A DNA stretch of 64,000 nucleotides from Natronobeatus ordinarius. Its GTDB lineage: Archaea > Halobacteriota > Halobacteria > Halobacteriales > Natrialbaceae. The notes under the pieces are model-generated. The model was not told the DNA's origin, searched no databases, and saw only the letters and a list, made by a program, of their open reading frames with translations. The position numbers were made by a program, and so were the translations under genes. Of the stretch, positions 6,290 through 7,975 are shown one piece after another. The first letter of the stretch is position 1. The number at the start of each line of letters is the position of its first letter. Location of the stretch: the NCBI RefSeq assembly GCF_024362485.1, contig NZ_CP101456.1, positions 372,001-436,000 on the forward strand, written 5' to 3'.

Positions 6290-6331
6290 GTTCCCTCAAA
6301 ACATATGTACCGGTTCGTGATACGGGAGGGC

Positions 6332-6535
6332 ATGACGCGTCACGTCCGGCGTCGATCGGTGCTCGCCGCCACGGTCCCGCTCCTCGTTTCCGCCTGTTTT
6401 CGTCGGGAGGACGGCACCCAGCCCGGAATGGGTGCGGACACGACGGACGTCGGGACGGCTGCCGACGATTCAGTGGCGACAGACGACGGCCGAATTGCCG
6501 ACCCAGCGCCAGCAGTCGAGGCGCCGGACGACTGA
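6332..6535 (+). CDS. Small putative Tat lipoprotein, function unknown
   Basis: 67 residues from the ATG at 6332. An in-frame ATG at 6305 would add nine residues, but 6332 places the twin-arginine stretch (RRRS) close to the N-terminus. A hydrophobic segment ends in the lipobox VSAC, after which the chain is short and acidic/Ala-rich with no known domain. It follows rio1 by about 40 bases on the same strand. The mature part is only ~45 residues, so it may be a small surface protein or a decayed remnant. Confidence 0.5.
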   Translation: MTRHVRRRSVLAATVPLLVSACFRREDGTQPGMGADTTDVGTAADDSVATDDGRIADPAPAVEAPDD

Positions 6536-6555
6536 CCGTCGCGGTCGCCGAAACG

Positions 6556-6560
6556 TTTTA
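6556..6560 (+). promoter_or_regulatory. TATA-like box before the Trp-rich leader ORF and trpS
   Basis: TTTTA within cgttttagc lies 27-31 bases upstream of the ATG at 6587. This suggests the transcript starts at the small leader ORF rather than at trpS, which begins 160 bases further on. Confidence 0.45.
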
Positions 6561-6586
6561 GCTCACGCCACCCGCATCGTCGGTCG

Positions 6587-6664
6587 ATGACGTCCGCTCT
6601 CGGCTGGCCCTGGTACGCCCCCTCGAGAGCGGACAGTGTCGCCGTCGGACGCGACGCGGCCTAA
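6587..6664 (+). CDS. Candidate 25-residue leader peptide with two Trp codons, upstream of trpS
   Basis: An ATG-to-TAA ORF of 26 codons whose early part reads GWPWYAP, with Trp codons at 6605-6607 and 6611-6613. A TATA-like box is correctly placed for a leaderless start. An 11-base perfect inverted repeat spans the first half (6592-6602 with 6624-6634), and its 21-base loop contains both Trp codons. The next gene is tryptophanyl-tRNA synthetase. This resembles a regulatory leader peptide, but no archaeal family is known to me and the role is inference. It could be chance. Confidence 0.4.
   Translation: MTSALGWPWYAPSRADSVAVGRDAA
6592..6634 (+). promoter_or_regulatory. Hairpin within the trpS leader
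   Basis: Arms gtccgctctcg (6592-6602) and cgagagcggac (6624-6634) are perfectly complementary over 11 bases. The loop, 6603-6623, carries the TGG-CCC-TGG-TAC codons of the leader ORF. Confidence 0.6.
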
Positions 6665-6748
6665 CCCGGCGCGGGCGGCGGCGACGCTCCCTTCGTTCTG
6701 TCGTGAATCACACGCTAACTGCCACACTCCAGCCACCGCACTACTCCG

Positions 6749-7975
6749 ATGACGGACACGCCAGCCGACACGAATGAATCGACTTCCGACCACCCGTCCA
6801 TCGATCGACCTGGGGCCGACGAGGCGTTCGTCGTCACTCCCTACGCCGTCTCCGGCGAGGTCGACTACGGGCGCCTCCTCGAGCGGTTCGGCGCCGATCC
6901 GCTCACCGACGAGCAGATCGCTCGGTTCCCGGACCATCCGCTGGTTCGCCGGCGGACCTTCTACGCCGGTCGGGACGTCGACCGCCACCTCGAGGCCGCC
7001 GAGGCAGGCGAGTCCCACGCGATCGTCACCGGTCGGGGGCCGTCGGGGCCGATGCATCTCGGACACGTCCCCCCGCTGTACCTCGCAAAGCGCTTCCAGG
7101 AGGCGACGGGGGCGACCGTCTACCTCCCGCTGTCCGACGACGAGAAGTACCTCGCGAAGGCTCAGTCGTTCGCGTCGATCGGCGAGCACACGCGGGAGAA
7201 CCTCCGCGACGTTCTCGCCGTCGGCTTCGACCCCGAGAAGACCCGGATCGTGGTCGACACCGCCGACGCCGACGTCGTCTACCCGATCGCCGTTCGCCTC
7301 TCGAAACACCTCACGCCCGCGACGGTCGAGGCCGTTTACGGCGAGACCGACACCGTGGGGCTGCAGTTTTACCCCGCGGTGCAGGCGACCCACCTCCTGC
7401 TCCCACAGTTCGTCGAGGGGCGCCAGCCGACGCTCGTCCCGATCGCCGTCGACCAGGATCCCCACGTCCGGGTCTGTCGCGACGTGGCGGGCAAGGAGGC
7501 GCTACCGGTCTCGAAACCGGGCGCGCTGCTCGGCCGGTTCCTCCCTGGGCTCGAGGGACCGGGCAAGATGAGCTCCTCGGGCGATGCTCCGTCGATCGAA
7601 CTCACTGACGACCCGGAGACGGTCGCCGAGACGATCCGCCGTCACGCCTACACGGGCGGCCAGGCGACCCTCGAGGAACACCGCGAGAAGGGCGGCGACC
7701 CGACGGTTGACGTCCCGTTCCAGTACCTGCGATACGTCTTCGAACCCGACGACGACCGCCTCGAGCGACTCGCCTCCGACTACCGATCCGGGGACCTGCT
7801 CAGCGGCGACCTCAAGGAGGTCGCGATCGACCGCATCACCGACTTCCTCGCCGACCACCAGCGCCGACGCGACGCGCTGGGCGACCTCGTCGACGAACTC
7901 GAGCCCTACCGCCTGACGGCGAGTGAGCGACGGCGGGCGCTCGAGTCGGCCGGGCTGCCGACGACCCTCCGCTAG
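6749..7975 (+). CDS. trpS: Tryptophanyl-tRNA synthetase
   Basis: 408 residues, class-I synthetase that charges tRNA-Trp. The HIGH-type motif is MHLGH (102-106) within GRGPSGPMHLGHV, and the second signature is KMSSS (273-277). The N-terminal 30 residues are acidic and variable. Haloarchaea often carry two TrpRS genes; which paralogue this is cannot be decided from the window. It is preceded by a 160-base region with a Trp-coding leader ORF and hairpin, which may regulate it. A tryptophanase gene lies elsewhere in the window. Confidence 0.92.
   Translation: MTDTPADTNESTSDHPSIDRPGADEAFVVTPYAVSGEVDYGRLLERFGADPLTDEQIARFPDHPLVRRRTFYAGRDVDRHLEAAEAGESHAIVTGRGPSGPMHLGHVPPLYLAKRFQEATGATVYLPLSDDEKYLAKAQSFASIGEHTRENLRDVLAVGFDPEKTRIVVDTADADVVYPIAVRLSKHLTPATVEAVYGETDTVGLQFYPAVQATHLLLPQFVEGRQPTLVPIAVDQDPHVRVCRDVAGKEALPVSKPGALLGRFLPGLEGPGKMSSSGDAPSIELTDDPETVAETIRRHAYTGGQATLEEHREKGGDPTVDVPFQYLRYVFEPDDDRLERLASDYRSGDLLSGDLKEVAIDRITDFLADHQRRRDALGDLVDELEPYRLTASERRRALESAGLPTTLR

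Follow-up and report, generated by a model that had tools for sequence, protein, structure and literature searches.

Candidate ribosome-mediated attenuator with Trp codons upstream of an auxiliary tryptophanyl-tRNA synthetase gene in haloarchaea

Introduction

Attenuation by a translating ribosome is a textbook form of gene regulation in bacteria. In Streptomyces coelicolor, the gene for an auxiliary, indolmycin-resistant tryptophanyl-tRNA synthetase (TrpRS), trpRS1, is reportedly regulated in this way by attenuation at a leader with Trp codons. Attenuators with clustered UGG codons have been predicted for the trp operons of Corynebacterium and Streptomyces, and a further attenuator has been predicted before trpS2 of Streptomyces avermitilis (PMC1262725). 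In the open-access papers searched, we found no description of archaeal attenuators or leader peptides.

Here, we analysed a stretch of 64,000 nucleotides (referred to as the window) from the genome of the haloarchaeon Natronobeatus ordinarius, for which an earlier note, made from the sequence alone, had suggested a leader peptide with Trp codons and a hairpin upstream of the TrpRS gene trpS. Our own labels for genomes, contigs and loci begin with G, C and L, respectively.

Results

A leader ORF with two Trp codons precedes an auxiliary TrpRS gene

An ORF with TGG-CCC-TGG, a perfect 11-bp hairpin around both Trp codons and trpS starting at 6749, as described in the earlier note, are all present in the window (Table 1). 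The same genome encodes another TrpRS at G000:C1:1064020-1065495, which shares 36-39% identity with the window TrpRS. Among the genomes searched, the window type is patchy in the family and the housekeeping type is present in nearly all. Because the genome has a second TrpRS gene and the window type occurs patchily, the window leader precedes an auxiliary TrpRS; i.e. the window trpS is the second, auxiliary gene and the gene at G000:C1:1064020-1065495 encodes the housekeeping enzyme. No leader was found upstream of either trpD or the housekeeping TrpRS gene of this genome.

The earlier note had also pointed to TATA spacing for a leaderless start, and a BRE/TATA-like box is indeed located 38-26 nt before the leader ATG, which is the right spacing for such a start. 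Moreover, in 84 aligned leaders, the bases are 62-77% A at -36 to -34 and 49-67% T at -30 to -26, with little base bias in the rest of the 45 nt before the leader ATG; these are the positions at which haloarchaeal BRE and TATA elements are expected if transcription starts at the ATG. From the box and its spacing, we infer that it is used as a promoter and that the leader transcript is probably leaderless, with its start at the leader ATG. On the plus strand, the interval that separates the leader from the Rio1 kinase gene contains a small ORF (6305-6535) with a lipoprotein-like signal (RRSVLAATVPLLVSACF) and without a match in NCBIfam.

Table 1. Features of the trpS leader region in the window
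Feature	Position	Strand	Basis and remarks
BRE/TATA-like box, CGAAACG-TTTTAG	6549..6561	+	Sequence and positional base bias; putative promoter
Leader ORF, encoding MTSALGWPWYAPSRADSVAVGRDAA followed by the stop codon	6587-6664	+	25 codons; sequence; frame and in-frame Trp codons conserved in orthologs
Segment A, 5' arm of hairpin 1, GTCCGCTCTCG	6592..6602	+	11/11 complementary to B; covariation in 63 leaders
Trp codons of the leader ORF	6605-6607 and 6611-6613	+	TGG-CCC-TGG
Segment B, 3' arm of hairpin 1, CGAGAGCGGAC; alternative partner of D	6624..6634	+	Pairs with A, or with D in a fixed register
B:D helix	6626-6633 with 6692-6699	+	Second partner for the 3' arm; absent from the earlier note
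Segment B', 5' arm of hairpin 2, beginning with invariant AGU	6635..6647	+	Folding, covariation
Hairpin 2 base	6635-6637 and 6686-6688		Columns 92-94 and 146-148 of alignment A2
Segment C, 3' arm of hairpin 2, final GCU invariant	6676..6688	+	Folding, covariation
Segment D, pyrimidine/U-rich	6689..6703	+	Pairs with B when A is unavailable; putative site of termination or cleavage
trpS, auxiliary TrpRS, proposed regulated gene	6749..7975	+	NCBIfam NF008927, 565 bits

Trp codons and RNA are conserved across haloarchaea

At about 100 haloarchaeal loci, we scanned the sequence before the TrpRS gene over a distance of at most 500 nt. Nearly all of these loci contain a short ORF encoding W-x-W, mostly of 19-30 codons, the start of which is located about 85-215 nt upstream of trpS; examples are the leaders of Halobacterium salinarum (MQSAPCGWRWRVRGADSFAAAA), Haloferax prahovense (MESTSSANCWRWHASREVDSVSV) and Natrialba aegyptia (MTAALEWQWRWQPRSRADSVLAVADAA). 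The same kind of leader is present upstream of TrpRS in about 90 haloarchaeal orthologs, and this conservation rules out a chance origin of the window leader. No leader was found upstream of the orthologs from outside the haloarchaea (L073, L076-L083). From codon 4 to the B arm, TGG occurs 198 times in frame, and 2 and 2 times in the other frames, a count that overstates the case because the ORFs were picked for having Trp. In total, 94 loci yielded a Trp-containing leader ORF and seven did not; among these seven, one is truncated by the end of a contig, and L089, L090, L036 and L038 retain a damaged leader, which in L089 has a change from TGG to TGA.

The number of Trp codons varies from 2 to 4 per leader by in-frame insertion. 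Single-Trp leaders, with VRRWHP and one Trp codon 5' of B on an intact scaffold, are found before housekeeping TrpRS genes in one genus (L160, L162, L179 and L185-L187 in G192, G229, G290, G292, G249 and G340). In other leaders, the stop codon follows directly after the Trp codons and 5' of B (L053, VTTSTHLGRWRWH; L168, VTSVPAVIVRWRWR, and L189-L191, genus g66; L193; and L197); thus, a stop codon inside hairpin 2 is not essential. Finally, in Halorussus the reading frame after the Trp codons differs (GERTVS followed by the stop codon) while the RNA sequence (GCGGACAGTGTCG) is the same, which argues that selection acts on the Trp codons and the RNA and not on the peptide.

Two adjacent hairpins are supported by covariation

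Hairpin 1 consists of segments A and B, and its loop (6603-6623) contains both TGG codons. Directly 3' of it is hairpin 2, formed by B' and C, which was absent from the earlier note. The leader region of the window folds better than its shuffled versions (z -2.3). In 63 non-redundant leaders, A:B and B':C have standard pairs in 88% of cells, and changes on both sides were found in 109 cells compared to 40 ± 5 in shuffled controls and 7-31 with slid partners; moreover, when arms are exchanged between species, both A:B (z -11) and B':C (z -8.5) become weaker, with kinship among the leader sequences inflating both the shuffle and the swap statistics. By the same comparison of own and swapped partners, A:D, A:C, B:C, B':D and C:D gave no clear signal, and neither did the Trp-codon region or the middle when paired with any segment. 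A weak helix between the Trp codons and D, which RNAalifold proposed from alignment A1, was rejected, as it consists of near-invariant columns without covariation. The earlier note had named conservation in relatives as the check on its proposal: across haloarchaea, the Trp codons, the frame and the stem are kept, the latter with compensatory changes.

B has a second, mutually exclusive partner

In addition to A, segment B has D as a second partner, and A:B and B:D are therefore mutually exclusive. B:D is an outward extension of hairpin 2 across a small internal loop and has a fixed register. Two registers are allowed, and with the better one taken, 8.30 of the 9 pairs are formed, compared to 5.83 ± 0.13 with shuffled D, and 54 of 61 leaders have at least 8 pairs. 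An independent set of 29 elements located before other genes gave 8.38 compared to 5.86 ± 0.19 with shuffled D. Swapped B:D combinations pair worse than a leader's own (z 4.5; 0/3000); this signal was obtained in the fixed-register tests only, an initial unanchored swap test having given none. The similarity of A to D alone was not above that of swapped pairs. We also considered D as a generic repeat word, and rejected this because it is not enriched in the window.

The window sequence folds into A:B when A is present and into B:D when A is removed. In silico, A:B is dominant in ribosome-free folding; with a ribosome mask on the last Trp codon, B:D was obtained in 55 of 62 sequences, and with the mask at the stop codon, A:B was obtained in 47 and B:D in 3. 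The last Trp codon starts 14 nt before the start of B in 43 of 63 leaders, and the leader stop codon is located 3' of B' and 5' of D in 62 of 63; in the window leader, it lies between B' and C. In total, the predicted choice between A:B and B:D is well supported by comparison, and comparative sequence data similarly support the leader, its frame, the cognate codons, the two hairpins and a geometry that would fit a stalled ribosome.

The codons in the leader switch with the downstream gene

We searched 392 Halobacteriales genomes for the element using a covariance model. The window genome has one strong copy (113.7 bits) and no second one, all other matches being at most 20 bits and without the motif. 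The element was detected in 178 of the 392 genomes, the auxiliary TrpRS in 148, and both in 143. In the five genomes with the auxiliary TrpRS and without the element, the 5' part is replaced by other sequence in one (G114), and none was seen upstream of the gene in the remaining four. A generalised model, R2, matched in 40 of 40 element-positive genomes and had no match in 80 element-negative genomes.

Thirty-five genomes contain the element without the auxiliary TrpRS, and 34 of these were inspected (G372 was left out). In 27 of the 34, the element precedes a housekeeping-type TrpRS gene (e.g. L163, with the leader MVSTSTDRWRWRWQAPEVDSLAAATRRA). In G138 (L176 and L181, G138:C166), it precedes trpD-trpF-trpE, in which TrpE was assigned by eye, and the leader (MLSAFRSWSWRWYRSGKRTVS) contains three Trp codons. 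In G271 and G289, which represent one genus only, it precedes a gene for seryl-tRNA synthetase (SerRS; TIGR00414, 434 bits), and the leader is Ser-rich (MESTSRSRSQSSFWEVDS...; MESTSRSRSQSSFWEVDSAAAVGWA in G271; L219, G271:C9, about 490-2013; G289:C4:124616-126128). This SerRS is a second copy, the other SerRS in the same genomes being about 42% identical. Altogether, the codons switch with the downstream gene on the same scaffold, and no other observation argues as strongly for codon-specific sensing.

The element is also found before acetyltransferase genes in G194, G150 and G041, which have no auxiliary TrpRS, and before a SAM methyltransferase gene in G286 (L188/L213; G286:C1, C6), where the leader begins MVSVSYLMRWLTFWEADS. 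Moreover, second copies in TrpRS-carrying genomes precede acetyltransferase genes (G169, G232) and an ABC exporter gene (G346; L204/L214, G346:C1:1344110; leader MSATGLGPVLWHGSTVADSALA). No single residue is repeated in the leaders associated with GNAT acetyltransferases. Four of the five GNAT acetyltransferases (at L194 in G194, L201 in G150, L206 in G232, L207 in G169 and L151 in G041) are one related group. The locus in G041 had been considered as a decayed trpS locus; this was wrong, as the downstream gene is an acetyltransferase gene. In G289, another Ser-rich leader (L212, G289:C2) is followed by a broken SerRS remnant.

A model for attenuation and its alternatives

We consider it highly probable that the element exerts ribosome-mediated, Trp-codon-specific control of some kind, and likely that it is a ribosome-mediated, codon-specific attenuator in which stalling turns trpS on and termination occurs at D. 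According to this model, transcription would begin at the leader ATG with the ribosome trailing the polymerase along the leader. When charged tRNA-Trp is plentiful, the ribosome would reach the stop codon in the loop of hairpin 2, A:B would form behind it, and the U-rich D would remain single-stranded; the exposed D would then be the site at which the transcript is ended or cut, most likely by FttA/aCPSF1 together with the U-tract. When charged tRNA-Trp is scarce, i.e. when Trp is low or TrpRS is inhibited, the ribosome would stall on the TGG codons and cover A, B would pair with D, hairpin 2 would be extended into a single long hairpin in which D is hidden, and transcription would continue into trpS. 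The idea in the earlier note that a stall at the Trp codons prevents formation of hairpin 1 fits the geometry and the simulated folding; it was incomplete in that the freed B would pair with the U-rich D, giving an attenuator with two states.

T-stretches terminate transcription in Haloferax volcanii in vivo (PMC7237163), and FttA/aCPSF1 binds U-rich RNA and cuts nascent transcripts at a distance of about 22 nt from the 3' end (PMC11616081; PMC8716108); thus, burying D would plausibly block FttA. No other part of the leader is as U-rich as D, which has T runs of at least 4 in 29% compared to 0-2% in the flanks. A T run of at least 3 is present in D in 34 of 63 leaders and absent in 29; it is located after the B:D helix in 17 and inside the helix in another 17, and therefore sequence alone has no power to fix the polarity. 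That a stall turns trpS on, which like the stall itself and termination at D we infer, is based on physiology and on A:B as the default state.

If the polarity were opposite, the long hairpin formed by B-B' and C-D would together with U residues be an intrinsic terminator of the bacterial type, and a stall would turn trpS off. The 17 leaders in which the longest T run comes just after the B:D helix (e.g. CCGCTC-G-TTTTT in L015) would fit this, and 59% termination has been measured in H. volcanii for a 3' end with a hairpin upstream of it (PMC7237163). However, the 17 leaders with the run inside the helix and the 29 without a run do not, and TrpRS, SerRS and Trp biosynthesis would be turned off when charged tRNA is scarce, which is physiologically senseless. 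Moreover, A:B is the ribosome-free default fold, and in attenuators the default fold is normally the off state. Altogether, we regard the opposite polarity as unlikely. Somewhat less probable still is post-transcriptional control, in which the choice between A:B and B:D would alter cleavage or translation of trpS mRNA and not termination. The structures, codons and geometry would suit such control equally well, the trpS 5' leader has no evident Shine-Dalgarno sequence, and FttA is itself an RNase (PMC11616081); however, the trpS start is outside both structures, usually at least some 50 nt past D, and would be sequestered in neither state.

The short, conserved WRW core of the peptide could point to an arrest peptide of the TnaC type, whose amino acid sequence would sense free tryptophan, but conservation of the peptide is limited to the Trp codons, Halorussus reads the following part in another frame, the number of Trp residues is variable, and the scaffold also occurs with Ser codons before SerRS; an arrest peptide is, thus, very improbable. 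We give even less credence to the idea that there is no regulation and that the region is a conserved gene for a small protein or functionless, inherited intergenic sequence: the compensatory changes in two hairpins, the conservation of a third pairing, the shift in reading frame that follows the Trp codons and the presence of the same element with matching codons before unrelated genes all argue against it.

Discussion

The attenuator proposed here, in which a stall turns trpS on, shares with bacterial trp-type attenuators (E. coli trpL as well as the Corynebacterium and Streptomyces leaders, PMC1262725) a short leader ORF in which Trp codons are clustered, one segment that can pair with either of two mutually exclusive partners, and a stop codon past the first hairpin arm. 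It differs from them in that it is archaeal, in that its leader gene is probably leaderless, and in that D is the U-rich segment itself and extends the constant hairpin 2, without a separate terminator hairpin. Among the hallmarks of the trp type, we observed cognate codons (Trp with two types of TrpRS, Trp with trpD-trpF-trpE, and Ser with SerRS) and exclusive structures that share B; a shift of structure by a stalled ribosome was seen in silico, by masked folding and geometry. The haloarchaeal element, which has no detectable sequence relationship to a trp-type attenuator, would work like one. S. avermitilis trpS2 and S. coelicolor trpRS1 are likewise auxiliary TrpRS genes behind a Trp-codon leader; however, these encode bacterial TrpRS and have an intrinsic terminator, whereas the haloarchaeal enzyme is an archaeal-type TrpRS.

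T-box riboswitches similarly combine one scaffold with exchangeable specifier codons and control genes for synthetases and amino acid biosynthesis, but a T-box binds uncharged tRNA directly while the haloarchaeal codons are read in an ORF. The T-box covariance model had no match with E up to 1, and an Rfam 15 search of the window region returned only a chance match to a miRNA model on the opposite strand. If FttA is the effector, the nearest functional parallel would be the Rho-linked tnaC of E. coli, in which a leader ORF is combined with factor-dependent termination; in contrast to tnaC, the haloarchaeal element lacks a conserved arrest peptide and has alternative RNA helices.

More broadly, we tentatively suggest that these elements could be a haloarchaeal family of translation-stall-sensing leaders and an archaeal counterpart of the T-box. 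In this family, the specifier codons would be matched to auxiliary synthetases (Trp, Ser) and amino acid operons, and the element would also have reached genes for acetyltransferases, an exporter and a methyltransferase. It would serve as a response that is induced by starvation or by inhibitors of synthetases, with FttA as the readout at an unstructured U-rich site. A conserved, covarying and codon-swappable attenuator in haloarchaea would demonstrate that archaea control genes through the coupling of transcription and translation, and it would provide genetic access to FttA-dependent termination. It would also suggest that natural compounds in brines which inhibit TrpRS and SerRS are a possible reason for the spare synthetases. 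The element is present in species of Haloferax, a genus with genetic tools, and the proposal is therefore directly testable.

The base of hairpin 2, i.e. AGU:GCU including a U.G wobble and followed by CNCU, is identical in 45 of 45 elements, including those with unrelated downstream genes. This invariance exceeds what base pairing needs, and possibly reflects contact with a protein or the ribosome.
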